IMG/VR virus record: IMGVR_UViG_3300039307_000027
Location: 1 to 44,305 of that record
Source of the DNA: a virus
Reading direction: 5' to 3' (one strand)
DNA: 44,305 nucleotides
Of the stretch, positions 5,064 to 37,709 are shown in pieces. The stretch's first letter is position 1. The number at the start of each line of letters is the position of its first letter. Position numbers and translations under genes: made by a program. The notes beneath the pieces were generated by a model, which made no database searches, was not told the DNA's origin, and saw nothing but the letters and a program-made list of their open reading frames with translations.

Positions 5064-6575
5064 TTAGGCTACGTCCTGAATCAGGCCCAACCCGAACGGC
5101 ACGTAGAGCTGCAGGACTTCGTCGGCGTAAACGCCATACTCATAAGTCCGCTGGATCACGGGCCATTCCTTCGAGTAGTACTCCTGCCGGGTGACGACCC
5201 GCGCCACGCCGGGGATGTTCGCGTTCGGGTAGGGAACGTGCTTCAGGTTGGCAAAGAGCCACCCGGAAGGCATGTTCGGATGCAGGCGAACCGGTGTCGC
5301 CTTCGCGCCCTCCATGCTGAACTTGTTTAGGTAGGAAGTGACCAGCGCGCCCGCAGTGATTTCGCCCTGCGAGGACTTCTCGTTGGGCATGATGATGTTG
5401 TAGACCGGATTCGAGGTGCCGCTGAGCACGATCTGGGTGATCTCGTTCGCCAGCTTCGAGCCGACCCACAGTTCATCCGGCCACAAGCGGTAGTTGTCCC
5501 AGAAGGACTTGAACATCGCGTCGATTTCCACGACGCTGCCATGAGTGTCGGAAGTAAACTTCGCGCCGGCCAGCGAGGCATAGTAGCCGCCGCCGTTGAT
5601 GAGTTGGGTAATGAACCCATCGAACGATGTCGCGTTCGAGGAGTGGTCAGTGGAAAGGCCGGTCGCGTTGGCCTTCTGGTTGCCTGCAGTGCCAAGAGAG
5701 GGCGTGACGATGATGGGGATGTCGGTGATACCGACGAGCGAGCAGTTCGCCGCGCCAGTGGTTGTTCCAAGGTACCAGGCATAGCCAGCCGCACCCTGAA
5801 CGGGGTTGACCGACCAGGTGATGTGTTGGGTTGCGCCAGGCGTGATGGTGGCTTGCGCGGAAATCACGCCGACGCCGCCATTGACCGTCTGGGAGTTGCT
5901 GTATGGACCCGCAGAGGTCTGCGAGAACGACGGATTGGGCGAATTGCCCGCAGCGATGGCAGCAGTGGTGAAACCGTTTGCGCCGCCGCAGAGGGCTACG
6001 CCAAGCGGGGTCAGTGCCACGCAAAAGCAATAGACCGGAACTGCACCGAACGAGCCGTCAGAGCCCGCCGCCACGCCAGGCGTTCCAAGGAACGTCACTT
6101 GTGCGAGTGTGAGCGATGCGTTTCCGCCGAGGAGCATTTGCTCTTCGCCTATCATCAATGCTTCAAGCGTGGTGATTTGCGCGAGAGCCCGCATGTCATC
6201 GAAACCTTCGCCGGCATACTGCCCTTCAAAGGTCACCTGGTTTTCAATCCCGATGCCCTTGTAGGTCGCGGTGTAGTCCTTTTCCGTCAAAGACATGACC
6301 ATGCCGCGCTTCCCTTCCTGCACTCCGACGTAGGTCGCGGGAGAGCCGGTATTGATGCCGGTGATGGCCTTCCAGTGAGCCGCCGTGCCGTATCCGGAAG
6401 GCTTGTTCACCCGGGCGGTTTGATTCCGCAGGGGCGTCAGCACCGGATAGAGGCGCTTGGCTTGAGCTTCCAGGTCGTAGTAAACCAACCCGGTGTTTTG
6501 TGCGATCCCGGCGGTCGTCGCATCCTTGAAGAGTGCGAGTGTGCGCTGGGTCAAAGCAGACAATTCAGCGTTCAT
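5064..6575 (-). CDS. Major capsid protein with inserted Fn3-like domain
   Basis: This 503-aa protein follows the protease/scaffold gene and precedes the connector. It has the expected order: an N-terminal helix, an E-loop-like region (TYVGVQEGKRGMVMSLTEK, 81-99), a spine-type helix (GFDDMRALAQITTLEALMIG, 124-143), a long insertion at about 160-310, and a C-terminal axial part ending AVYADEVLQLYVPFGLGL-like (YGVYADEVLQLYVPF). The insertion holds HITWSVNPVQGAAGYAWYLG, which resembles an Ig/Fn3 strand pattern, so capsomers probably carry a surface domain. There is no separate decoration gene nearby. GGAGG lies upstream of ATG 6575. A terminator upstream (6639-6679) suggests it may have its own promoter. 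Confidence 0.85.
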   Translation of the reverse strand: MNAELSALTQRTLALFKDATTAGIAQNTGLVYYDLEAQAKRLYPVLTPLRNQTARVNKPSGYGTAAHWKAITGINTGSPATYVGVQEGKRGMVMSLTEKDYTATYKGIGIENQVTFEGQYAGEGFDDMRALAQITTLEALMIGEEQMLLGGNASLTLAQVTFLGTPGVAAGSDGSFGAVPVYCFCVALTPLGVALCGGANGFTTAAIAAGNSPNPSFSQTSAGPYSNSQTVNGGVGVISAQATITPGATQHITWSVNPVQGAAGYAWYLGTTTGAANCSLVGITDIPIIVTPSLGTAGNQKANATGLSTDHSSNATSFDGFITQLINGGGYYASLAGAKFTSDTHGSVVEIDAMFKSFWDNYRLWPDELWVGSKLANEITQIVLSGTSNPVYNIIMPNEKSSQGEITAGALVTSYLNKFSMEGAKATPVRLHPNMPSGWLFANLKHVPYPNANIPGVARVVTRQEYYSKEWPVIQRTYEYGVYADEVLQLYVPFGLGLIQDVA

Positions 6576-11962: not shown

Positions 11963-13609
11963 TTATTGTGCTTTTGCAAAGACCTGTGTGGCTGGCGCCG
12001 CGACTGGCGGGCCAGAAAGAGGAAGTTGCAACGCCCCCCGGTCAATCGTGCCGTTCGCACCAAATGTATTGCCGTTCATATCCACGTTGAAGTTGTGAAC
12101 GGCGGTCGTCACGTTGCCATCGTAGTAGGTAGAACTGCCAACATTGGAAATACTCACGCCGGGGTGGCTCAGGAACGGGTCGGGGGTAGTAAGTGCGAAA
12201 CCCGCAATTGTGGACGCGGTTTCATTCACAAACGGGTTTGCTCCCGCCCCGCTGACGATATAGCCGTGTGTGTTCGTATCGCTGTAGCAAGAAGAAGCCA
12301 CCCCCTGGTAGTATGCGTTGTAATCCCACGTGTAGGTCATCCCAGGTATGGAGTTCCAAAAGTAACCGCCGTTCCCCCAGCAACTAGGGTTTGTATTCGA
12401 CCCTCCAACCAAGAGATTGTCTTCATCGTAGGTAACGATGTTTCCGGTAATCGTGCCGTTCTGTCCGCTGTTATGTGGAGGGCCGGAAAGCTCCTGACTG
12501 TCGTACAGGATGCCATTCGTATATCCATCAAGCGTGTTGTGGACTACGTACAGAACACCGTTGTAGTTATCGCCCAGCATGTCCACAATGCCCCAGTTTT
12601 GAATCCCGATGCCATAGGAACCCAAGTTGAGCGCACGATATGCTGCATCCCAAAACGAGATGTTGCCGTAGAAATACCAATTCGTGATGGTAACGGTTCC
12701 AGCATCGGAATCGGCCAAATTCCCGTTGTAGTCGATGTCCTGAAATACATTGTAACGAACGGTCAGGTCAGAGAAAACGGCGGCGAATCCTTCATCGTGG
12801 CCACCGTTTTGGCCTGTGTGATTGTAGCTGATCCAGTTGTACTCGAACGTGGCCCAGTCGTTAAGGCCGTAGTTCATTTGAAACTGAGTGTTTCCCGTGT
12901 GGTGGGCATAAGAATGCCCAACGTAAAGATAACTACAGGTTCCAGAAGACGATGATTGTTGATAGATGGCATCGTCCTGCCAGATGCCGCAGTTGTCCGA
13001 CGAACATTTGTCAGCAGTAGAGTTGTTGTTGGGAAATCCGCTCCCCGTGCCCTCTATCTCCACGTATTGAGCCGTGAAGTGCGACGAATCGTAAAGATTG
13101 ATAGCTCCACAATCATTCGGACAGGACGTGTTGACGTTCCAGAATTTCAGCGTGTAGCAGGCCGTGTTGTTGCTGGGGTAGCTGCAGCCCGACACCGCTT
13201 GTCCATTGACCGTCCAGTAGTCTGTCGTGAACGATGTCTCGTTTGAGAATACGGCTTGCCCCGCAAAGCCACTGCTCCAATCACCTGCTGGGCCGTGGTT
13301 CGCGGCAGTCACACCCTCGATGAAGATGCGCGTTGTCCCGCTGTCGGACGTACTAAAGTTCGGCGCGGTATAGCTGCCCGTTCCTACCCAGTAAGTGACG
13401 CCCCGGGTAAGCGAAGCAGGGTTCACCTGAGTTCCGCCAGTCCCGAATCCCGTGTAGGCATTCGTCCAATTTGCTCCGCTGTGCGTTCCCGTTGCGCTGG
13501 CGAGCACGTAGCAGTTACCACTACCGTCGCAGCCTAAACCAAAAGCGGCAGGGGCAAACAATCCAAGCAGTGATGCAAAAAGAAAGAGTCTTTTCGACAT
13601 AGCGTTCAT
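11963..13609 (-). CDS. Secreted right-handed beta-helix protein (pectate-lyase-like fold)
   Basis: This 548-aa protein has an N-terminal Sec signal peptide (SKRLFLFASLLGLFAPAAFG, cleavage near AFG|LGC). Repeated short strands with Asn and aromatic ladders follow, typical of right-handed beta-helices (LKFWNVNTSCP, FTAQYVEIEGTGSGF, ATFEYNWISYNHTGQNGG, LTVRYNVFQDIDYNG, VLYVVHNTLDGYTNG, GTITGNIVTYDEDN). The many cysteines would suit an oxidising extracytoplasmic space. Beta-helices are common in polysaccharide-degrading or -binding proteins, but no catalytic residues can be assigned. ATG 13609 overlaps the upstream stop by 4 nt. The longer frame to 13714 only adds an Arg-rich out-of-frame reading of the neighbour. 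Confidence 0.75.
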   Translation of the reverse strand: MNAMSKRLFLFASLLGLFAPAAFGLGCDGSGNCYVLASATGTHSGANWTNAYTGFGTGGTQVNPASLTRGVTYWVGTGSYTAPNFSTSDSGTTRIFIEGVTAANHGPAGDWSSGFAGQAVFSNETSFTTDYWTVNGQAVSGCSYPSNNTACYTLKFWNVNTSCPNDCGAINLYDSSHFTAQYVEIEGTGSGFPNNNSTADKCSSDNCGIWQDDAIYQQSSSSGTCSYLYVGHSYAHHTGNTQFQMNYGLNDWATFEYNWISYNHTGQNGGHDEGFAAVFSDLTVRYNVFQDIDYNGNLADSDAGTVTITNWYFYGNISFWDAAYRALNLGSYGIGIQNWGIVDMLGDNYNGVLYVVHNTLDGYTNGILYDSQELSGPPHNSGQNGTITGNIVTYDEDNLLVGGSNTNPSCWGNGGYFWNSIPGMTYTWDYNAYYQGVASSCYSDTNTHGYIVSGAGANPFVNETASTIAGFALTTPDPFLSHPGVSISNVGSSTYYDGNVTTAVHNFNVDMNGNTFGANGTIDRGALQLPLSGPPVAAPATQVFAKAQ

Positions 13610-14931
13610 GGGCCGATGACTGCCTTTCCGCCGACGACGGCGTGCCCGCCGATCGCGCCCGTGCCGCTCACGGATGGCTGGTATGCGCCCTTCAAGGTCA
13701 TCAGAACTCCCCAATAGTGGTTCCCGGAATTGCCGTTCGTTGCCGTAGCTGTTGGCGAAGCCACCGTTGATTGTGTTGCGTAGAACTCATCGAACTGCAA
13801 CACGTCTCCAGTTCCTACTCCCCAATATCCCGACCCGGCAGTGAAAGGTTGGCCCGCGCCTCCCGCTTGATCACTGGCGAAATTGGCGGCGACCAGTTCG
13901 TAGGCATAGTTGGTATTTGACCCCGCTCCCGTGGTCATCGAAGGAGCCGAGGTTCCCCCGGCAGCGTGCGTGATGTCCGCAGCCGCCGTGTTATCCAATC
14001 CGTCGAACTCGAAGCAGTCGGTATATATGTCACTTGGCGAACTCGTGATTGTTGTCGTTACCGAAGACGATGCCGCTCCGTTCTTGGCATACCAGACATA
14101 CGAAGTGATAGTGCTGCCCGTGTGCGTCGGGCCATCAATCACGGTGTAGGAACTGCTCCCACTGTCTGCAAAAGACGTGAGTGTTCCAGCCTGGTCGAGC
14201 CACTGCGCACTGCAAATGATGGCGTGACCTGCCACCGTGTTATTGTCCCAATAAATCACGTTGGTATTGCCGCCGCCCGAAGCCCCCGCTTCTGTCTGGA
14301 TCAACTGAGGCTCGGCTTGAAAAGAAAGCGTCTCGGTGAAATTGACGTACGTATCGCCGGTTGCCGCTGTAGTCCGTCCACCGTAGTGCATCGTAGCCGT
14401 ATAACTAGCGGCCATCGACCCGCCGGCCGAATTGATGAACCACTTCACGACGATACGATCACCTATGGCAAACGTGGTACTCGTCGGTGAACCGGTCCAA
14501 TTATTCGCGGCGTTACCCGTGCCAAGCTCTGTCCCGAAAGAACTGTCAATCACCGTCGTGGATTCCGCTCCAGCGGTGTACTTGATGACCTGGACCTCGA
14601 ATCCGGCGTTCGCCAAAGCGTTATTCTCGTTCCCCCAACCGTTGAATGTAACCGTGCCCGAAATTGTGACGGCACTGGCGAGTGGAGGAGAAATCCAAGC
14701 AAGGTTTGCCCCACCAGAGGTAGCTGTAAGCTGCTTTGGGGGGCTGGCTGTCGTCTGCGTCACTGAAGCTACCGCCGCAGTGAAGTCCGCGTTGTTGTTT
14801 AGGTCCGATGCGTAGTAGGTGGCGAAAAGATTTGAGTTCAAGTTCGGATTGATCTTCATGTACAGCTTATTCGCCAACGCGCAGGGCGCGGCGTAGGCCA
14901 GCAGAATCAGAAGCGGTATCAGTTTTCTCAT
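13606..14931 (-). CDS. Secreted beta-sandwich surface protein
   Basis: This 441-aa protein has a signal peptide ([21 protein letters not shown]). Two beta-rich modules follow: one at about 20-205 ([50 protein letters not shown]) and one at about 210-420 ([63 protein letters not shown]). The second resembles jelly-roll domains in environmental surface and phage-associated proteins. The C-terminus is Gly-rich ([18 protein letters not shown]). Start and stop overlap both neighbours by 4 nt. A role as an adhesin or sugar binder is inference. Confidence 0.7.
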
Positions 14932-17900
14932 TGTAGTGTGCAGCTCCCGCCGCGGCGGATATTCAAAGTTGAAGTGGTGCTGCTGAGTGCGGCTGCGTCG
15001 ATGATGAGAGTGCTGCCAGCCACAGCAGCTCCTTCAATCGTGCCCCAAATTTCGGCTTGATAATTCGTTGTGGTTGCACCGCCGGCCGTGCCAGTGCCGA
15101 CGTTCTGATGCCCGGTCGTGGTGTTTGAGATATAGCCGGTAACAGTGGCTCCAGCAGCAGAAGTTTGCACGGCAGTGGAGACGGTTAGCTGCGTTGGTGC
15201 GGCTGAAAGATTGACGCCGAACTGAGGGCCAGTGACAGTGGTATTTGTGCTCTCCCACAACATGCTGCAATTGAATCTATAGGTCTTGGCGGATGCAGTT
15301 GCTGGAAGCGCCCAGCTAAAAACTGTAGAGGCTGTATTCGTGGAATTGGTGTAGTCCGCGCCGGTAATGCTCTTTGTTCCCAGCGTCGATTGGATGATTC
15401 CGGCGGCCAGAACAGCACCAGTCTTGTCCACACTGAACTGTGACGCGCTCGCATTCTGCAGATCCATGAGCATAGATCCCGTGCCCGCGGTGCCCGTGGT
15501 TGTGTTCACAAAGATTACGCCAGTCACTACGCCTGTGGTATTCCAAGTAGGCAGAAGGCAAAGGGTGCAAAGCGTCTGCGATCCGTTCAGCGAGTTATCG
15601 ACCTTGAGCGGGCTGGCGGTTGAGCCGACGAGCGTCTTGATTTCCGCTTCGTACTGCGCACCAGCGCCGTTCGTCGCCGCTGTAGTTTCGCCAATGGTTA
15701 GCCCAACCTGCGAAGCCGTCGTCTGGTTGTTGTTGAAGAAAATGGGGAAGTTCCCGTTCGCATAAGTCGTCGAAGCTGCAGCCGCAGAGAGAAGGTCAAG
15801 CGTTGGCGATGCCCAGCTTGCCGTGCCGCCGGAAGTTTCCTGCAGGAACTTTGTGCCGGAAGTGTTGCCTGCGAACTTCGCCCAGGTTGTGCCATCGCCC
15901 TTGAGTAAGTCTCCTGCAGCCGCTGAAGTGAGAATTGATTCCGTCATCACGCTGGAAGCGTTCGTATAGAGCGGGATGCCTGTGGCCGCTGCTCCGGGGA
16001 GTAAAATCTCGTATGCCGTAACCCCTGCTGGACATTCCAGCGTTGCGGTATTCGCCGTGGCGTGCCCATTGGCCGAGCCTTGCGTACATTGGAAGTAGCC
16101 AGCCGTCGTGCCCACGGTCGTCACGTTTCCAGCTTTATCAACCTTGAATACTGGCGTTCCGCCGATGGCCAAATCCATCAGCAGCGAACCTGTGCCCGAC
16201 GCCGTATTCGTCACATTGACGTGCACTGCGGCATCTGCCACGCCGGTTGTGTTCCACGTTCCCGTGATATTCAGGAAGTCGGTTACGTTTGCACCGGCCA
16301 CCGTGCCACCGGCGATGATTGCCTTACCAGAAGCGCCGGCCGTACCCGTGGCGCCCGCAGATCCCAAGTTCACGATGAAGTCGCCGCCCTTGCCAGTTGT
16401 GCTGCCCACTGCGGCTGTCCCGCCGTTGCTGGTCGTAAGGGTGATGTCTCCGCCGGCCCCGCCCGTGCCTGAGGTTGCACCTGCGTTCGACCCGACGCCT
16501 GTCGTAAAGGTGAACCCGCCACCCTTTTTACCAGGGTTTGTTGCTCCGCCGTTTGCCCCGCCAGCACCACCCGCTGCGCTGATTGCTAAGGGCGCATCAG
16601 CGGCAGAGGCAGCAGTGGCTTGCGTGAGACTCAAAGGAATGAGGGTCGAGCCCGAGATCGTGGTCAGGTTCAAGAGATTCGCTGTGCCTGCCGATGTCGC
16701 AGCCGTTGCCTCGGTAATGGTAAATACCGACTGAGCAGAACTTGTGGCAGCCGAATTAATCACGAACGGATTGTTACCTAGAGCAATTGCCGTGATTGCG
16801 CCCGTAGGTGTGACAACCTGGTTCAGTGGGATGTTCGGAAGGTCGCCGACGGCGATCGCACGGTATGCAGGGGCACCCGCCGTTGCTGTGGCAAACAATG
16901 CATGAGTCGTGGTCGTGTCAGTCGAGGCCGTGACAACCGCTGTGCCGGTCAGTGCTGGTAGGGTAATCGTAAAAGCGGACGCAGCAGATGCGGGCGTCAG
17001 GCTGACGCTGCCCGTCGCCGTCACAGAAGCGATCTTCAGAATGCCCGTCGTCGTGCCAGCCACGCCAATCGTCAGTGTGGGAGAAGAATATGTCAGGTTG
17101 ACAGACGTGCTCGGCGCGGCACCAGTGCCACCGCCAATCATTACTCCACCGGATGCCAGAAGGGCGGTCGAAGACTCCGCAGATGTGCTCGAATACCAGG
17201 GGATGCCGCCTTGCGTGAAGCCCGCAGATGCCGGGAAGGTGTTCCCATTCACGCTCGTGGCGTTGATCGTGCCCGTGCCGATGGCAGCCAACGTCCCCGC
17301 GCTCGACATCTGCACCCCGTTCGCAGTGCCTTGCGCGGTGATTTGGAATGGATGAATTGAAGAAGTTCCAACAGAATGAACTTCTAGCAGCGCGCCCGTG
17401 CCCGTGTTTCCCGTCGCGTCAATCAGCGAGAACAGGTTGTTCGTGCTAGTGTTGCCCGAATAAGTGAACTGGGTATTGTCGCCTACCGGCATCGTGATTG
17501 CCAAGGATGCCGTTGGTGCCGTCAAGGCAGACCACACAGACGAACCACCGGAGATCGAATTGCAGCCCAGCGCATGAGTCGTGGTGTTATACGTCAGCGC
17601 GCTCGTTCCAGTAGAACAGCTCGGCAGTGCTACCGCTGTCGGTGCCGCAGCGCTCCCCGTCGCATTCAGCAGGACCGTGTCCGCAGCCTGCGTCGAAAGG
17701 TTCGTCAGCGCAATGCTGGCTACGATGCTCTCTGTGACCACGCCCGAACTGTTCGTCCAGTAGGGGAAGCCTGTCGCTGCAGCACCTGGCAGAACAATCT
17801 CAAAAGCCGTGACCGCTGCCGGGCACTCGAATGTGATTGTATTCGCGGTTGCATGACCGTTCGCGGTTCCCTGCGTGCATTGGAAATAGCCGGCGGTTGA

Positions 17901-20882
17901 ACCATTCGCCGTGAACGCTGGCCCAACGAATCCGCTTGTCGCTGTCGTTGTGACCGTCGTCCCATTGTCCGTGATCGTGGAATTATTCGGCGCGCCTCCT
18001 GCACCACCGCCGCGGACTAGCACGTTCGTATTCAGAATTGCCGAAGAGCTTTCCTGTACTGTTGAGTTGAAGTACGGAATGCCACCCGACGTGACCGTCC
18101 CACTGACCGTCAAAGGCAGAGCAGTCGAGCCGCCAGTGATGGAGTTGCAACCGAACAACCCGGTCGCTGTGGTGAACGTCAATGCGCTGGACCCCGTCGA
18201 GCAACTGGGGAAGGATTGCAGGGTCGGCATGATCGGGAAAAACGTGTTGGTGTTGTCGGTGTATTGGAAGCCGAAAGCATACTGCGGCAGCTTGCCGAAT
18301 CCTGTCTGCGAACCCGATGCCGGGGTATAAATCACGGTCCCAGCGCCAATGTTGAACACGCTGAACACGATGTTTCCAGCTAGCGTTGGACCCGTCATGG
18401 TTGTGGCTGACCCGTTGCTCGTGGTCAGCAGTTCTGCGTTCATCGCTGACGTGACGGTATCGGACGTGCCCACGAATGCGTTGACGGGAACACCTGGGAT
18501 CGTGCAGGTTGGGGCCACAGCAACGCCACCCACGACGTTGTAGCCGCACACGTAGTTCCCGTTTGCCGTTGGAGGCGTCAGGCTGCCCACTGTGGTCGAA
18601 CCGGTGTAGTACGCCATCCCGTAAGTAGTGCCGCTGGATAGCGTGCCCGAAGGAGCGGACCATGTGCCATCACCACGCCAGAACGTACTCGAGCTGGCGC
18701 CGGTGCCACCACTCAAGTTGTTGATGGACAGATTCCCGGTGACCTGCGTGGCCAGATTCAGTGTGCCGCTGATATTCGAGAAGCCTGGCTGCGCGCACCC
18801 AGGAGCTGTGTTGCGCGTGAGTGCGTTCACCCATTGATTTGCCGAGCAGGAACCCACGCCCGAATACGCGCTGCCCAGTCCGGCATCGGTCAAGGTGCCC
18901 GATATGGCGAACTGTACATTGCCCACACTCGGATTCGACGCATTGATTGTAATGCCCGTAACAGTCGCACCGTTCTGGAAGTTGATCGTGGACTGATTCG
19001 AGGTGTTGGTGCCATTGACCTGAATTGTCGCTCCACCACTCGAAGTCGTTCCGCAAGAGAACGCATGCGTCGTGGTGCTGTAATTCAGATGGTTTCCGGC
19101 TGAGTCCAGGCAGGAAGGAATTGTGGCCCATTGGCCGGTAGCCGCGGCGGTTGTATTCAGGAGCTGATCGGCTGCTGAGTTCGTGGGGACCGTAGTGCCA
19201 TTGACGCGGATTGCGGTCAAAGTCAGCGACCCGGCCGAGTTCGTGACGTCTCCCGTGTGGGCAGGCTCTTGACCGGCCTGCAGCGTGCCAGAGACGTCGG
19301 TTCCCAACGCCACAGCGCCAAAGGAAGGCAGCCCAGAGGCATTGCCATGCAGGACTGTTATTGTGGTGCCCAGGGAGGCCAGAACCTTCAAATCTGAGCC
19401 ACCGTTGCCCACGACCACGGCATTCAGCGTCAGATTGCCTGCGGAGTTCGTAACCGTGCCCGCACCTGAAGGTGTACCCCAGGTTCCATCGCCTCGCCAG
19501 TAAGTCGAAGACGACGCGCCAGAGCCCCCGTTCAGGTTGGCAACAGGCAGGTTTCCGGTCACTTCCGAGGCTAGATTGACCTGAGCCCAGATATTCGTGC
19601 CATGCAGGACTTGGCCGCTGGTGCCTGTGGCAAGGCGTGCGAGGATCCCACCGCTGACCGTCCACAGGTCGCCATTCGTGGTCAGAGGTGTGGCCGACAG
19701 AGGAAGCGTGCCAAGAAGGTTTGAATACGACGGCTGCGCCTGGCTGAAGACGCCTGTGGCTGAATTGTAGGCCGTGATGAACTGATTTGCGACGGCTGGG
19801 GTGTTCGCGGGCGCAGTGGGCGTGCCGGAAACCTGCGAGTATGCGATCGTGACGTAAGCCTGCGCGCCGTTCAGGAAGGTATTCGCGTTTGCCGTGCCCC
19901 CACCGAGTTGTGCCGCTGGTACTAGCCCGCTGCTGTTCAGGCCGGCGTAGCCGCTGACTGCGCCCTTGTGACTCGTCACTTCGCAAGTAGGGCATGCCAG
20001 GGTCGCACTCCCACCCGATCCGCTAAAGCTCAAGGGCGAACTAAACGTCGCGGTAATCAGGTCAAGAGAATAATCCCCACTCGTCGCAGTGATCGCACCA
20101 GTGCGTCCAAATACGGATGACACCGCGCCACCGCCCCCGCTAGTCGGCATGCAACTCGCGCCGGCCGAGTTGATGCAGCCAATTAGGCCGCTTCCAGAAT
20201 CGAAATAGACTCGGCCAAAGCCCGCCGCAGGGTTTGCTGGTGCGACTTGTTGCCCAATGTCGAAGTAGTGCGTGCCAAGATTGTTGTTGGCACTTAGGTC
20301 AAAAGCGTTTGTGACCTGTGCGGCAGTGTAGTCGCCACCGACAGCCGCAACGTCACCTGTGCGCCCAAACACTGAACTGACTGCACCGCTGCCACCAGAT
20401 CCCGCTGCGCATTGCCAGCCGCTTGATGTCCATTTCGTAAAGTAGTTGTTGGGGCAGCCGGGGGGCGGCAACAACTGGGCCATCGGCACCATCACGCCCG
20501 GCGCTGTCGGCCACAACACGCGCACACCGCTGAGATGAATCGTAGTGCCGCTCAGCGGTACGACCCAGTTTTCGTGAAAGCGGGCGGTCGAAGTCGCATA
20601 ATCCACGCTGTAACTGGTGCCAAAAGGCGATGCGCCGATGTTCGGCACAAGCTGCACGCTGAACGAGCCGGTCGCATCGAGTGTGATGTAGGTTTTTTGC
20701 CCAATCAGAACGGTATAGCCATCCAACGACGTAAAAGTTTGATTCGTCGTGATGGTCATCTGGCCGACGACAGTGCCGTTCTGTGGCGGGATGAGCTGGT
20801 CGGCAATTGTCGTGCGAACCTGCGCGGAGACTGGCAAGGCAGCGAGCAAAAGAAATGCGAGGATGATCAGTCTGTTCTTCAC
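14928..20882 (-). CDS. Giant exported fibre/adhesin-like repeat protein (1984 aa)
   Basis: This is the longest gene in the window. It starts at GTG 20882, 4-nt coupled to terminase and preceded by GAGGAAG. Residues 1-20 are a clear Sec signal peptide ([20 protein letters not shown]). A compact beta domain (about 21-145) and a Gly/Ser linker follow, then two copies of a tail-fibre-type motif ([14 protein letters not shown] at 167; [14 protein letters not shown] at 253). Fibre-like repeats come next ([16 protein letters not shown] and [16 protein letters not shown]), two diverged copies of a roughly 57-aa block (AGYFQCTQG to TES) and a long Gly/Ala/Thr/Ser-rich passage. A C-terminal beta-sandwich ends RRGGSCTLQ. 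The repeats say fibre and the signal says export, two facts not usually combined. Whether it is virion-associated or placed on the host surface is undecided. Confidence 0.8.
15934..16104 (-). repeat. Internal duplication in the giant fibre-like gene, C-proximal copy
   Basis: This encodes [19 protein letters not shown] and the following [14 protein letters not shown] block. It matches 17725-17895 at a constant offset of 1791 bases, with diverged third positions, so the duplication is old and the protein sequence has been kept. Confidence 0.75.
17725..17895 (-). repeat. Internal duplication in the giant fibre-like gene, N-proximal copy
   Basis: This encodes [19 protein letters not shown] and the following [14 protein letters not shown] block, the counterpart of 15934-16104. 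Confidence 0.75.
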
Positions 20883-26228: not shown

Positions 26229-26590
26229 GGTAGCAGCCTCATCTGTCCGGTTTCACGTTCGCGCCGTTCACGTCGATGCTGCCTGTGAAGTTTCACGTCG
26301 TAGCGCAGGTGACATCGCTGGCACATCGCTTTTAGGTGGCGCCGCCTTGCGCACTTCGGGCTGTGGCAGAGATGCGCGGTAGTGAGAACCACTTTCCCCT
26401 GTGCCCATTTAGCCGAATGTCCGTGCAGTTCTACGCAACGCCGTGGGCCTCCAGTCGTGCGATGTAACCCACATTCTCCTGTGCATTCACACTGCGGGAC
26501 ACCGTCAACATTCTTCGCGCGATTCATAACTTCGGCGCGAATCTGCCGCCAGTTTTTCGGGTACTGCGCGCGCTCGGAAGAAATAGGCAT
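26225..26590 (-). CDS. HNH-type endonuclease-like protein
   Basis: This 121-aa protein follows a known small phage HNH-like layout: YPKNWRQIRAEVMNRAKN, CECTGECGLHRT, then VVLTTAHLCHSPKCARRRH and LKAMCQRCHLRYD. The His/Asn-like and paired Cys residues would form a zinc-stabilised beta-beta-alpha metal nuclease. Such proteins can nick or cut DNA, often near cos or for homing, but no partner is visible here because terminase lies 3.5 kb downstream. ATG 26590 overlaps the preceding TGA (TGATG). A GTG at 26593 is the alternative. Confidence 0.75.
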   Translation of the reverse strand: MPISSERAQYPKNWRQIRAEVMNRAKNVDGVPQCECTGECGLHRTTGGPRRCVELHGHSAKWAQGKVVLTTAHLCHSPKCARRRHLKAMCQRCHLRYDVKLHRQHRRERRERETGQMRLLP

Positions 26591-26985
26591 CACGGTTTCT
26601 TTGGAGTTGGCGCAGTCGGTGTGGGCGTTGGAGCTGCTGGCGGCAGCGCGGGTATCTGTGGTTTGAAACTAAGAGTCTCTTCCTCCCATGTGTATCCCTG
26701 CGGCACCTGGCCCTGTAGTCGTGTGGCCATGCCGTTCAATTGGTCAATCTTCGCGGTAAGATTCTCTTTTTTCTGGATTGCGGCGATTTCGTCCCTGAGC
26801 GCTTTGAACTCCTGCCACTGCTCGACGAACTCCTTCGGCGCGATTTTGTTTTCCGCCGGCGCTACCTTCAAGGCTTTCAGAGGCGGAGTTTGGTTGCACC
26901 CCACGATCAGCACCACGAGGCCCAACAGCAAAAGCAGAATGCACCCTGCGAAAATCGCGTACTCTTTTCTCGAAATGTTGCTCAT
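26590..26985 (-). CDS. Membrane-anchored coiled-coil protein, lipoprotein-like
   Basis: This 131-aa protein has a strong hydrophobic segment (IFAGCILLLLLGLVVLIV, about 10-27) followed by GCNQ, a lipobox-like arrangement. A coiled coil follows (about 45-85, EFVEQWQEFKALRDEIAAI, ENLTAKIDQLNGMATRL) and a Pro/Thr-rich tail (PTPTPTAPTPKKP). GGAGG precedes ATG 26985, which overlaps the upstream stop by 4 nt. It probably faces the periplasm. It is far from the lysis genes, so a spanin role is not favoured. Confidence 0.65.
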   Translation of the reverse strand: MSNISRKEYAIFAGCILLLLLGLVVLIVGCNQTPPLKALKVAPAENKIAPKEFVEQWQEFKALRDEIAAIQKKENLTAKIDQLNGMATRLQGQVPQGYTWEEETLSFKPQIPALPPAAPTPTPTAPTPKKP

Positions 26986-30688: not shown

Positions 30689-30979
30689 TCACCTCAAAAG
30701 CAAAATGCCCCATGCACACAGGCTCGCCAGAATCGCCACGACGATGCCCCAGGACCAGGAGATTCCCGGCTTCACTTGCAGCGGCCGGGACTTCCGAGGG
30801 GCAGTGGAAGCCCCGGTCTGTTGCTGCATCAGGGAAGGCGGGTGGATTTGGACAAGAGGAGCGCTCGTCCAGTCTTCCCCGAAAGTTTGCACCACGGTCA
30901 TGTTCGGGCCGCAGTGGATCTCCATCATGGCGTTCTCACTGACGTAAACATCGAAGCTGTTGTTAGTGTCCACGATCAT
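30689..30979 (-). CDS. Tail-anchored membrane protein
   Basis: This 96-aa protein starts at ATG 30979, 4-nt coupled to the Imm5-like gene. The soluble N-terminal part (MIVDTNNSFDVYVSENAMME, MTVVQTFGEDWTSAPLVQI) is followed by a basic stretch and one C-terminal hydrophobic helix (WGIVVAILASLCAWGILLL). The pairing with an immunity-type gene may be functional, but nothing else supports a role. Confidence 0.6.
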   Translation of the reverse strand: MIVDTNNSFDVYVSENAMMEIHCGPNMTVVQTFGEDWTSAPLVQIHPPSLMQQQTGASTAPRKSRPLQVKPGISWSWGIVVAILASLCAWGILLLR

Positions 30980-31575
30980 TTTGAAGCTCCGATGCTCGCA
31001 GGAATCTTCAATTGCTTCCTGCAAATGTCAGCGGATTCGCGGAGCCGTGCGGCGTAGGCGGCGTCGGCGGCGTCGGCGTCGGCGGCGTCGGCGGCGTAGG
31101 CGGCGTAGGCGGCGGCGCAGGCGGCGGCGCAGGCAGCGGCGTAGGCGGCGGCGCAGGCAGCGGCGTAGGCGGCGGCGTAGGCGGCGGCGTAGGCAGCGGC
31201 GTAGGCGGCGGCGTAGGCGGCGTCGGCGGCGTAGGCGGCGCAGGCGGCGGCGGCGGCGCTCCGCACATCCTCAATCGTACCTTCCCCTTTAGCCCATTTC
31301 CGCGCCGCTTCGATGGCCAGTCGTGGCCGTTTGTCGTCCGGGTACTTATCCTCAAACGACTTCAGCGACAATTCCGCGCAATCACAGCACGCCAGGACAA
31401 TTTGTTGTCGCGTCGGCCAGTCTTTCTTTCCTTGCATCTTTCCGCACAGCCACAGCATCCAGTCTCCGCGTTCGCAGGCTTTCCACGCGGCGCGCAGCGT
31501 TTTGTAATTCTTCGCCCAAACAACTGATTCTTTGCAGGCTCCAATCGCTTTCAGACTTCTCGTTAATGTGGCCAT
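30976..31575 (-). CDS. Imm5-like putative immunity protein with Ala/Tyr repeats
   Basis: This 199-aa protein starts at ATG 31575 after GGAGGG. Residues about 15-110 match the family annotated as putative immunity protein (VWAKNYKTLRAAWKACERGD, then CAELSLKSFEDKYPDDKRP, RLAIEAARKWAKGEGTIEDV). A long Ala-rich helix made of AAYAAAYA/AACAAAYA units follows, then LRESADICRKQLKIP. Imm5-type proteins were first linked to polymorphic toxin systems, and phage copies are known but unexplained. The coding DNA is a GC-rich microsatellite (31050-31259), so length can vary by slippage in multiples of codons. Confidence 0.7.
   Translation of the reverse strand: MATLTRSLKAIGACKESVVWAKNYKTLRAAWKACERGDWMLWLCGKMQGKKDWPTRQQIVLACCDCAELSLKSFEDKYPDDKRPRLAIEAARKWAKGEGTIEDVRSAAAAACAAYAADAAYAAAYAAAYAAAYAAAYAAACAAAYAAACAAACAAAYAAYAADAADADAADAAYAARLRESADICRKQLKIPASIGASK
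31050..31259. repeat. GC-rich microsatellite in the Imm5-like gene
   Basis: About 210 bp are built from GGCGGCGTA, GGCGGCGCA and GGCGTC triplet blocks, encoding (AAYA)n and (AACA)n on the minus strand. Repeat number is expected to vary between genomes and can confound assembly. Confidence 0.85.
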
Positions 31576-31850
31576 GCTTCCCTCCGTTTCGGCCCATAGG
31601 ACCAGCCCCGCGGCATTGCTATCACTTTTGCCTGGCGCGCTTGTAAGACGCGGGCAAGATTGAGGAGCGATGTGGACCCGCAGACCTGACAGGTGGAATG
31701 CTTTGACGGCGTGATGTACTCGCAGTTCGCGCACAGCACAGACTCTTTGATCGGAATGGAAACGACGGTGCGGCCGGCTGGGGCGTGGTGCTGAATGTGA
31801 AGCCAAACGCTTATCGCGATCAGAATCAATCCAAGAATCAGACCATCCAT
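31563..31850 (-). CDS. Membrane-anchored zinc-ribbon protein
   Basis: This 95-aa protein has an N-terminal helix (GLILGLILIAISVWLHI, residues 3-19), then a linker and a four-cysteine ribbon (LCANCEYITPSKHSTCQVCG). A basic C-terminus follows. It overlaps the Imm5-like gene start by 13 nt. Topology suggests that the ribbon is near the membrane. The 102 bp upstream contain only a 7-bp hairpin (31926-31947) without a T-run. Confidence 0.6.
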   Translation of the reverse strand: MDGLILGLILIAISVWLHIQHHAPAGRTVVSIPIKESVLCANCEYITPSKHSTCQVCGSTSLLNLARVLQARQAKVIAMPRGWSYGPKRREAWPH

Positions 31851-34410: not shown

Positions 34411-34878
34411 TCACCACCCCCCGTTTTTCTTGCTGTATGCGATCGCCACGGCGTTGTCCGCAGGCCCGTACCACTGTAAAAGCCGCTCAATCTTGTGGTG
34501 GTTGTGCCTGTGTGCCCAATATGACGCGAGCCACAGGGCGCCGTCCTGCGCGGCCATCATCACCACGGCCGGACCACACTTCTGCGTTGGCAGAAAATCC
34601 TCGTGTCCTCTGTGCCCCAGATTGTTGCAGGTCTGCGCAGCGTCAAAGGTCAGCAGCGTGGCCGTTGTTGCCAGCGCAATCTTTGTGTGCTTATCCCAAT
34701 ACCGCGTTTGCACAACTCGCTTCGGTTCTGGCGAGATCGGAAGATCGTTAGTCAACGCTGGGATTGGAAGAAGCAACGCGAGTGCTACTACGCATATTAC
34801 TACTACGTAAGATGTACTATTGGATTCTATTTTAATTACTGGTAACTTCGCGGCGTCCCGAAAGGAAAATATGGACAT
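34411..34878 (-). CDS. Membrane or secreted protein at the head of the early operon
   Basis: This 155-aa protein has a hydrophobic segment (VVVICVVALALLLPIPAL, about 29-46), usable as a signal peptide or anchor. A hydrophilic part follows with CNNLGHRGHEDFLPTQKCGP, a second mildly hydrophobic stretch (VVMMAAQDGALWLASYW) and a His-rich HRHNHHK. The start is uncertain. ATG 34878 overlaps the divergent plus-strand gene by 8 bp, and a weaker downstream start is possible. Unknown function. Export would place it on the cell surface early in infection. Confidence 0.55.
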   Translation of the reverse strand: MSIFSFRDAAKLPVIKIESNSTSYVVVICVVALALLLPIPALTNDLPISPEPKRVVQTRYWDKHTKIALATTATLLTFDAAQTCNNLGHRGHEDFLPTQKCGPAVVMMAAQDGALWLASYWAHRHNHHKIERLLQWYGPADNAVAIAYSKKNGGW

Positions 34879-35074
34879 TCCATTTCGGTTTCTGTTGGAT
34901 TCATCGAACGGCGTGATTGGGGAATACGAACTTTCGCGGCTCAACCATGCGGCAAACTTGCGGAAGGAAATACGTGTAAACTTCGAGCGCGCCGTGGACG
35001 ATCTTGCGGAAGCAAGATTCGCTAGGTGGCTGCTCGATAACCGCAGAAAATTGACTATGCGGCGGCTAAAATGA
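34871..35074 (+). CDS. Small charged protein on the plus strand, divergent from the early operon
   Basis: This 67-aa protein starts at ATG 34871 with AAAGGA upstream. The composition (YELSRLNHAANLRKEIRV, FERAVDDLAEARFARWLLDN, then basic LTMRRLK) looks like a real helical protein. The frame continues upstream to 34820, but without a ribosome site. It faces away from the leftward early genes, across an AT-rich stretch (about 34785-34860) with a direct repeat CTACTACG, and is followed by a terminator at 35121-35151. The location suggests a regulator, but no known motif is seen. Confidence 0.55.
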   Translation: MDIPFRFLLDSSNGVIGEYELSRLNHAANLRKEIRVNFERAVDDLAEARFARWLLDNRRKLTMRRLK

Positions 35075-35120
35075 GGATTTTGGGTCCTGCCTACAGATAT
35101 TATGTTAACTTGGAATTGGC

Positions 35121-35151
35121 GGGCATTCATGGCTAGGCCACCTGCCCTTTT
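35121..35151 (+). terminator. Intrinsic terminator for the plus-strand gene
   Basis: GGGCA (35121-35125) pairs with TGCCC (35143-35147), with an inner TGGC/GCCA stem (35130-35133 and 35137-35140), followed by TTTT. It lies 46 bp after the plus-strand stop and overlaps the 3' end of the convergent RHH gene. Confidence 0.6.
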
Positions 35152-35444: not shown

Positions 35445-35747
35445 TTATGCGCCGAGGGCGGCCTTGGCGCGGGCTTCTTCCTCTTGCGCACGTTCCAGAT
35501 CCCCGGCATTGGCCAGCAGTCCGTGCTTCTTCTGAATCTCGCCCAGTCCCCAGTTAAGCAGCTTGGCGAACTCGTTGCCCTTTGCGGCATAGCGTTGCGC
35601 GCGGGCCGATATCGTTTCGTCCAGATTGCCGTCCGCAAGAACGTTCACGAAGTCGTCCATACCGGTCAGTACCCGCTGGAGGTAATAATGGTGCGAAGCG
35701 TTGACCTGCGCCTGAGCGATTTGTTCCGGTGTCAGTGGTGTGCTCAT
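35445..35747 (-). CDS. Small helical hypothetical protein
   Basis: This 100-aa all-helical protein (LTPEQIAQAQVNASHHYYL, ISARAQRYAAKGNEFAKLL, LERAQEEEARAKAALG) is 4-nt coupled to the upstream membrane protein. It is at the end of the lysis-region transcript. Function unknown. Between it and the RHH promoter (35340-35444) I see no further gene. Confidence 0.6.
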   Translation of the reverse strand: MSTPLTPEQIAQAQVNASHHYYLQRVLTGMDDFVNVLADGNLDETISARAQRYAAKGNEFAKLLNWGLGEIQKKHGLLANAGDLERAQEEEARAKAALGA

Positions 35748-36088
35748 TTTTTACTCGGTTCTATTACGGTAGTCCCAGTACCGTCAATTCCCTGCTGGTA
35801 GGCTTTGGTGATGGACTGGGGCACGACGAGCATGAGGGTGCGGCCCCTGGGGTCGCGCAGGAGTAGCGAAAAAACGCAGACGGTCATCCACACCATGCCC
35901 CAGCCGATTGCGATGGCCCAGGGCTTCCCTGCGATGAGCAGGAAGCCACAGGGTCCAAAGAAGCCGATGAACGCGGAAAAGAACACAGAGAGAAGCAGGC
36001 GTATCCAGTTCTGAATCTCCCCGTGCTCGATTTTGGACAGGATCAGCCCGCCAATGCCGCTGATCGCGCCGCTGATGAGTCCGCCCAT
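35744..36088 (-). CDS. Two-helix membrane protein, holin candidate
   Basis: This 114-aa protein has a Gly/Ile-rich N-terminus (GLISGAISGIGGLILSK), two hydrophobic segments (LLLSVFFSAFIGFFGPCGFLL, about 31-52; AIAIGWGMVWMTVCVFSLLL, about 58-77) and a polar C-terminus. Size, topology and position 1.1 kb after the endolysin suggest a holin, which would release the endolysin by making membrane holes. The other candidate is the N-terminal part of the 36483-37193 protein. The assignment is by context only. Confidence 0.55.
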   Translation of the reverse strand: MGGLISGAISGIGGLILSKIEHGEIQNWIRLLLSVFFSAFIGFFGPCGFLLIAGKPWAIAIGWGMVWMTVCVFSLLLRDPRGRTLMLVVPQSITKAYQQGIDGTGTTVIEPSKK

Positions 36089-36482: not shown

Positions 36483-37193
36483 TCAGAAGTGGAATGTCGG
36501 CCCAAACTTCACGATGAGCCCGTTGTTTTGATAGCCGGGGAACTTCGCCCACTCGACACTTCCGCCAAGCGTCCACGATCCGCTTTGGGTCAGCATGTAG
36601 TTGGCACCCCCGCCAGCCGTGAAGGCGTAGTGGTTTTTAGTGACGCCCGCCAGAGTCACTTGATCGACGCCAGCGCCCGCGGTAACGAAGGTCTGAACTC
36701 GAAGAAAATTCACGTTCGGGCTGATGCTATCGAGCTTCTTGTTCAGCCATGCAACCCGATAATTCACCCCGCCAGAGAAGACCTTCAGCACCCCGTCCGT
36801 ACTGATTAAGTTGCGATCGTAGATGTCGAGGTTGGGCGTCGGTGTGAATGCCAATCCGCTATCATTGGCCGCGATCGTCTGATGGTTGCCAGGCAGCGAC
36901 AGAACATTCGTATTCAAAGACCAGGGCTGAGAAACGGGAGCTGCCGGAGTCTGCGCCATTGCCACACCAGAAATGAGCAGGCAGAGGATGACTACTTTGG
37001 CGATGTAGGCCACCTTGGCCGGAGTGCCATCGGGATTGTAGTAGTGGTTGTAGAGTGCGAGACCTAATTGGGAAAAGCCAAGAGTGAACGCCACCAGGGG
37101 CTGATATTTCGCGGGAATGATCCCACCGAACAGGTTGACGGCCTGACCGATGAGAAGCAGGAACTGATAAAGCAAATGCATGAACACTGTCAT
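36483..37193 (-). CDS. Holin-like membrane segment fused to a signal peptide and outer-membrane beta-barrel-like domain
   Basis: This 236-aa protein has two unlike halves. Residues 1-60 form holin-like helices (HLLYQFLLLIGQAVNLFGG, QPLVAFTLGFSQLGLALY, then NPDGTPAK). Residues 61-80 look like a second, complete Sec signal peptide ending in an AxA site (AKVVILCLLISGVAMA|Q). Residues about 90-236 alternate as amphipathic strands (VNYRVAWLNKK, NFLRVQTFVTAGAG, YAFTAGGGANYML, WTLGGSVEWAKF, GLIVKFGPTFHF) and end in phenylalanine, the usual outer-membrane barrel signal. An internal GTG (37013) could give a barrel-only product. It follows the endolysin gene, so a lysis or outer-membrane role is possible. 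Outer-membrane location is inference. Confidence 0.6.
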   Translation of the reverse strand: MTVFMHLLYQFLLLIGQAVNLFGGIIPAKYQPLVAFTLGFSQLGLALYNHYYNPDGTPAKVAYIAKVVILCLLISGVAMAQTPAAPVSQPWSLNTNVLSLPGNHQTIAANDSGLAFTPTPNLDIYDRNLISTDGVLKVFSGGVNYRVAWLNKKLDSISPNVNFLRVQTFVTAGAGVDQVTLAGVTKNHYAFTAGGGANYMLTQSGSWTLGGSVEWAKFPGYQNNGLIVKFGPTFHF

Positions 37194-37208
37194 TGTTGCT
37201 TTCTCCTT

Positions 37209-37709
37209 TTAATTTGAGAATCCATACGTCTGATCGACCCAGTCCCAGACGGCTTGAATGCCGCCGTCCGTCAAAAGCTGCAGCAGATTGTCATCAGGGT
37301 CCGCAGGCAGTTCCAGCAAAGAAAGATGGGGTGCATCGGGAAATGTGCGCCACTGCGCGCCTTCGGCCAGTCCGACGCTTAGAGCCTGCGAGAGAAATTG
37401 TTTCCAACGGCCATCAACGGTTGACCAGTCCGGTTGCCATGTGGGCATCCCTGGCAGGTCCGGGCAGCAATCCACGGCGAGCCCGTAGTTGTGCATCGAA
37501 GAGCCCGGTTTTGCGTTCGTTACGACCGGACCCGGCGCTGTGCGGCCTTTCGCATAAAGCGCCGCCTGTTCCGGCCAGGTGCGCAACGCTTGGGTGACGC
37601 GAAGATGGATTGCGAGCGAACTGGCGGTAAGAAGCTGATCGAGCTGGAGGATGCGGCGCCGCAGTTCCGGGTGAACGGTCTGCAGCCGCGTGAGACTGAT
37701 GGCATCCAC
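37209..37709 (-). CDS. Endolysin, M15-family peptidoglycan peptidase
   Basis: This 166-aa protein belongs to the M15C-type L-Ala-D-Glu (VanY-like) peptidases. The zinc ligands are in SSMHNYGLAVDC (His73, Asp80) and PDAPHLSL (His128). The supporting motif RTWPEQAALYAKGRT precedes them. It cuts the peptide side chains of peptidoglycan at lysis. There is no signal peptide, so a holin is needed. It is flanked by a spanin-like protein upstream and the holin/barrel fusion downstream, which makes a lysis cassette. Start ATG 37709 lies 2 bp after the previous stop. Confidence 0.88.
   Translation of the reverse strand: MDAISLTRLQTVHPELRRRILQLDQLLTASSLAIHLRVTQALRTWPEQAALYAKGRTAPGPVVTNAKPGSSMHNYGLAVDCCPDLPGMPTWQPDWSTVDGRWKQFLSQALSVGLAEGAQWRTFPDAPHLSLLELPADPDDNLLQLLTDGGIQAVWDWVDQTYGFSN

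Follow-up and report, generated by a model that had tools for sequence, protein, structure and literature searches.

Why would a phage encode two membrane helices and an exported, apparently strand-rich domain in one reading frame immediately behind its endolysin gene? This question is raised by P0001, a single ORF in a virus record of 44.3 kb that also carries a portal-MuF gene, a terminase gene and tail genes (the window, by which we mean the whole stretch of DNA analysed). An earlier note, made from the nucleotide sequence, had read the frame as two inner-membrane helices followed by a signal peptide with an AxA site, and this reading was borne out. Hydropathy places hydrophobic segments at residues 3-19, 32-48 and 64-80, the AlphaFold model has helices at residues 2-22, 28-52 and 58-80, and the third segment ends in VAMA/Q (the slash marks the predicted cut), ahead of about 156 residues with the C-terminus GPTFHF. 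The gene does directly follow the endolysin, as had been proposed, its start codon lying 15 nt past the end of an M15-type endolysin gene (Table 1). The gene on the other side of the endolysin matches in position the gene for a transmembrane coiled-coil protein in the related cassettes described below. The 114-residue protein encoded beyond the fusion is a second holin candidate in the window; it is 98% identical in L002, L003 and L005, where its gene lies directly 3' of the fusion.

Table 1. Features of the fusion gene and its neighbours in the window
Feature	Position	Strand	Basis or remark
Fusion ORF P0001: holin-like N-half, signal peptide and barrel-like C-half	36483..37193	-	236 aa
Two-helix holin-like domain, residues 1-64, tail NPDGTPAKVAYI	37002..37193	-	Helices by hydropathy and AlphaFold; stand-alone relatives
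Predicted internal signal peptide, residues 65-80, predicted cut AMA/Q	36954..37001	-	Sequence; cut-site residues kept in aligned barrels
Barrel-like domain, residues 81-236, ends GPTFHF	36486..36953	-	Homologues; profile link to OMP_b-brl-type proteins
GTG codon, Val61 of the N-half tail motif	37011..37013	-	No ribosome-binding site; motif present in stand-alone N-halves
Shine-Dalgarno AGGAG of the fusion gene	37203..37207	-	Sequence; good, AAAGGAG context
Endolysin, M15/VanY type (Peptidase_M15_4)	37209..37709	-	Pfam 9.9e-9; PHROG endolysin 4e-22
Membrane protein with a coiled coil between N- and C-terminal helices	37712..38071	-	Weak family matches only
114-aa protein with hydrophobic segments	35744..36088	-	Weak PHROG holin match, E 0.14

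The fusion is maintained in one frame

The fusion gene is present on seven other viral contigs, six of which encode an identical protein and are therefore counted as one. Between the P0001 gene and that of L002, changes are distributed over the three codon positions as 14/10/80, and omega is 0.057 overall (0.07 in the N-half, 0 in the signal peptide and 0.05 in the barrel part). This pattern of changes, together with the low omega, indicates that the N-half, the signal peptide and the barrel part are all under purifying selection in one frame. A sequencing artefact was considered as the source of the fusion and was ruled out by the independent contigs and by the purifying selection.

Family searches of P0001 (Pfam, PHROGs) and a tblastn search against annotated phages gave no significant match, an initial scan of genome contigs found no relatives, and there was no match in 45 portal-related records and genomes, many of them fragments. 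The DNA pattern for NHxxNPDGTP matched only the same phage or unrelated sequences.

Each half exists as a separate protein

A pattern scan recovered small stand-alone relatives of the N-half at eight loci, one near-duplicate being counted once (L194, L211, L214, L220, L222, L225, L228 and L234). All end in NPDGTPAxVAY or near variants of it, a tail for which the scan itself had selected; beyond it, nine aligned sequences all share glutamines Q10 and Q42 in the helices. In the stretch inspected, a barrel gene stood beside none of the eight. The N-half is thus a stand-alone small phage membrane protein elsewhere. It shares with class II holins its small size and two transmembrane helices, as do its stand-alone relatives. 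A search against PHROGs linked it to no holin family with significance. That it functions as a holin we infer from the helices and from where the gene lies in the window and in L181 (see below); we go no further than this, since most of the stand-alone relatives lack a recognised endolysin as neighbour and several are found near a terminase gene.

For the C-half we searched 397 genomes from the order of an Acidobacteriaceae genome. Separate homologues with a signal peptide were found in L253 (E 1e-23), L254/L259 (4e-15) and L258 (1e-14), at about 30% identity; with the signal peptide removed, they still match P0001 with 89 bits (L253), 63 bits (L254/L259) and 67 bits (L258). The earlier suggestion of a gene fusion, which was to be checked by looking for relatives with the halves in separate genes, is therefore upheld. 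A C-half occurring as a soluble domain with no signal would have spoken against it; every separate C-half carries a signal peptide of its own. Since these homologues occur there, Acidobacteriota are the likely host of the phage.

The L258 gene is directly preceded by a Tlde1-domain gene, probably an endolysin, and a gene for a 63-residue protein with two transmembrane segments. In L259, the barrel gene is preceded by a holin-like gene and a coiled-coil gene; its frame (5447-5929, minus strand) ends about 25 residues short of its relatives, through truncation or an assembly error. A second protein with a signal peptide is encoded near the lysis region of the window (34411-35130, minus strand), and a homologue of it (28% identity, E 7e-11) lies at 4857-5408 of L260, on the same contig as the L253 barrel.

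A second barrel family at the end of the lysis cassette

A second fusion was found in an Acidobacteriota genome (L181), where a coiled-coil gene and a GH24 lysozyme gene are followed by a fused ORF of 252 residues. The N-half of this ORF is related to the N-half of P0001: a search covering 396 genomes matched the two with E 1e-4 and 32% identity. The barrel part has an identity of 32-33% with the stand-alone proteins of L191 and L239; pairwise comparison showed no significant similarity to the barrel of P0001. In a comparison of the two family profiles, which bears on whether the families share an ancestor, the probability was 41% and the E-value 3e-4 with the signal peptide included. Each of the two fused barrels thus resembles separate barrels more closely than it resembles its fused counterpart, so that two independent fusions of neighbouring genes would be the simplest account; alternatively, a single fusion may have been followed by exchange of the barrel. 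At a distance of about 5 kb downstream of the L181 fusion, a fragment of 42 residues (L262; G319:C127:43826-43951) shares 88% identity with the end of its barrel and is a relic second copy.

In L191, L239, L249 and L248 the genes come in the order membrane coiled coil, endolysin, two-helix membrane protein and signal-peptide barrel, with one additional gene ahead of the barrel in L248; in L191 the barrel gene overlaps the two-helix gene by ATGA. By Pfam, the endolysins are of the Amidase_2 type in L191, Hydrolase_2 in L239 and GH24 in L249, and that of L248 looks DUF5675-like. The order of the cassette is therefore constant while endolysin types are exchanged. Signal-peptide barrels of two families recur at the end of the lysis cassette, and each family is fused to the same N-half family.

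A possible role in lysis or in receptor masking

A role in lysis is suggested by the fact that the barrel gene keeps this place when the endolysin is exchanged, and by its fusion to a gene of holin-like character. On the main rival explanation, the barrel masks a receptor or excludes superinfection, with an effect like that of phage T5 Llp or of the Lom/Ail-type prophage proteins, and the late or lysis operon does no more than provide for its expression. Phages do encode small outer-membrane barrels, several of the relatives are in bacterial genomes and may belong to prophages, and the 5.8-kb contig of L253 has no recognisable endolysin. Against this, the place after an endolysin and a two-helix gene is kept as the endolysin type changes, and the fusion would link production of the barrel in a lysogen to that of a holin-like protein which may be lethal. 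We therefore regard masking as a serious but rather unlikely explanation.

The C-half as a probable outer-membrane barrel

The earlier note had described the C-half as about 145 residues of amphipathic strands ending in Phe. The terminal Phe and a segment of about 156 residues are there; a closed barrel was not confirmed for P0001 itself. A home-made test for strand alternation gave a non-significant z of 0.5, in a setting where the OmpX control reached only 1.8. The AlphaFold model of P0001 (three near-identical rows) has a mean pLDDT of 37 and is uninformative; a closed barrel was not seen in it. Nor was there a direct Pfam match of P0001 to OMP_b-brl, a Pfam match to the Lom/Ail/OmpX family, or a PDB sequence match of the profile; PDB sequence searches with the profiles of both barrel families returned nothing relevant. 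The model, the strand test and the lack of a direct Pfam match would suit a beta-rich periplasmic or secreted domain in place of a membrane barrel.

Three lines of evidence oppose such a soluble domain. With the signal peptide removed, the window-family profile matches the chromosomal proteins L266 (1.6e-5) and L267 (2.5e-5), the best of 6000 shuffles reaching 0.04; L266 in turn matches OMP_b-brl (PF13505) with 3.9e-5, a little below Pfam's cut-off, and L258 matches the same profile with 0.014. The model of L239, a stand-alone protein of the second family, consists of a signal helix and eight main strands (pLDDT 44). NspA, Ail and a designed barrel are among its best matches in the PDB, where OmpX, PagL, OprF and OmpA are also listed (E 0.02-0.5) with some soluble beta proteins mixed among them. 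In viruses it is matched best by phage proteins that carry the annotation of outer-membrane barrel, with E-values down to 9e-5. Finally, the C-terminal G-x-x-F-x-F resembles the beta-signal of outer-membrane proteins. Given the transitive profile match, the low-confidence model from the second family and the C-terminal motif, the C-half is very probably an outer-membrane barrel, and a soluble domain is correspondingly improbable.

A proposed precursor of two products

The earlier note had proposed that a possible internal start at GTG 37013 could yield an inner-membrane form and a separate outer-membrane form. This proposal found no support: the codon is Val61 of the NPDGTPAxVAY tail, which is common to stand-alone N-halves that have no barrel, and it lacks a ribosome-binding site, while good ones precede the main start and both of the separate barrel starts that were inspected (L191 and L239). 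Cleavage of one precursor by signal peptidase is a simpler route to two products. In all aligned barrels, fused and separate, a small residue (Ala or Ser) precedes the predicted cut and Gln follows it; since these residues are kept in both, signal peptidase I would be expected to cleave the fusions as it does the separate proteins. Lys60 and Lys66 precede the third helix of P0001, and by the positive-inside rule they favour a cytoplasmic loop at this point and a periplasmic C-half.

We propose that P0001 is a precursor made at lysis time, a reading whose chances we consider evenly balanced. Residues 1-64 would form a holin-like two-helix protein of the inner membrane, and the third hydrophobic segment would act as an internal signal peptide that places the C-terminus in the periplasm. 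Host signal peptidase would cut after AMA, so that the holin-like protein stays in the inner membrane while the remainder, probably a small beta-barrel, is released and inserted into the outer membrane by host machinery. There the barrel may act in the outer-membrane step of lysis, either as the outer-membrane counterpart of a lysis protein in the inner membrane or by making the outer membrane itself unstable, and the fusion would fix equal synthesis and timing of both products. The very existence of the fusion strongly hints at joint action of the two products.

The two membrane parts in one ORF could also be taken to mean that the uncut protein tethers the two membranes, as unimolecular spanins do in a single chain (PMC6139136), but this is very unlikely, given the retention of the AxA/Q site found in the separate, presumably cut, proteins, the lack of a periplasm-spanning linker between signal peptide and barrel, and the separation of the two parts in most relatives.

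Relation to known lysis systems

Like the lambda spanins Rz and Rz1, the system would consist of one inner-membrane and one outer-membrane product encoded in the lysis cassette and acting at the same step. It differs in that the outer-membrane product has a signal of the signal-peptidase-I type and a probable barrel in place of a lipobox and lipid anchor, and in that the inner-membrane half is built of two helices, a long periplasmic coiled coil being absent. The unimolecular spanin gp11 of phage T1 is likewise one ORF with outer- and inner-membrane parts adjoining the endolysin; in gp11 the lipobox is N-terminal and the helix C-terminal, whereas in P0001 the order is reversed, the N-terminal lipobox of o-spanins and u-spanins is absent from the sequence, and the two parts are separated by a cleavage site. 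Class II holins resemble the N-half also in lying beside the endolysin, but P0001 has no significant holin-family match and continues into a signal peptide and barrel. With the eight-stranded barrels of the OMP_b-brl (PF13505) and OmpX/Ail/NspA type the C-half shares the signal peptide, a mature chain of about 150 residues and the C-terminal Phe, and relatives of P0001 supply the transitive profile match and the resemblance in fold; unlike these barrels, P0001 gives no direct match, is encoded by a phage in a lysis locus, and is fused to an inner-membrane domain.

A regular-expression scan found no ORF with a lipobox in the cassette of the window or in those of L181, L191, L248 and L249; in L239 such an ORF (5450-5797) lies downstream of the barrel. 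About 10 kb from the lysis genes of the window, a lipoprotein-like ORF of 131 residues with a proline-rich tail (26590-26985, minus strand) may encode a spanin component, and on account of this candidate an ordinary spanin may be present in the window.

Most studied phages use spanins for the outer-membrane step. A survey covering 677 phages recognised no spanin in about 13% of them, and its authors state that the part of an o-spanin could be played by an outer-membrane protein (PMC6139136). With two barrel families and two fusions to one inner-membrane family, the cassette described here provides named genes for testing this question. We regard the fusion as a variant of the phage lysis cassette with a putative function in lysis, and there are hints that a barrel protein serves these phages in the outer-membrane step. 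It is tempting to speculate, tentatively, that some phages of Acidobacteriota, and perhaps of other diderms, have a further, barrel class of outer-membrane lysis protein that replaces the lipoprotein spanin; its partner would be a lysis protein of the inner membrane with two helices, to which it has been fused on two occasions. Outer-membrane barrels encoded by phages are already annotated in public data. A described fusion of holin and barrel was not found in the literature searched, in which subscription journals are thinly covered, in agreement with the earlier note.

Other features of the window and related loci

Three consecutive large ORFs with clear signal peptides (11963-13714, 13606-14931 and 14928-20882, minus strand) lie beside the terminase gene of the window. 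Single large, fibre-like ORFs with signal peptides are found just upstream of the lysis cassette at 2463-3770 of L239 and 1571-5632 of L261. The window also contains a 12-bp tandem repeat in 16.5 copies (31049-31252), which lies within an ORF (30976-31806) and is translated into an Ala/Tyr-rich repeat.
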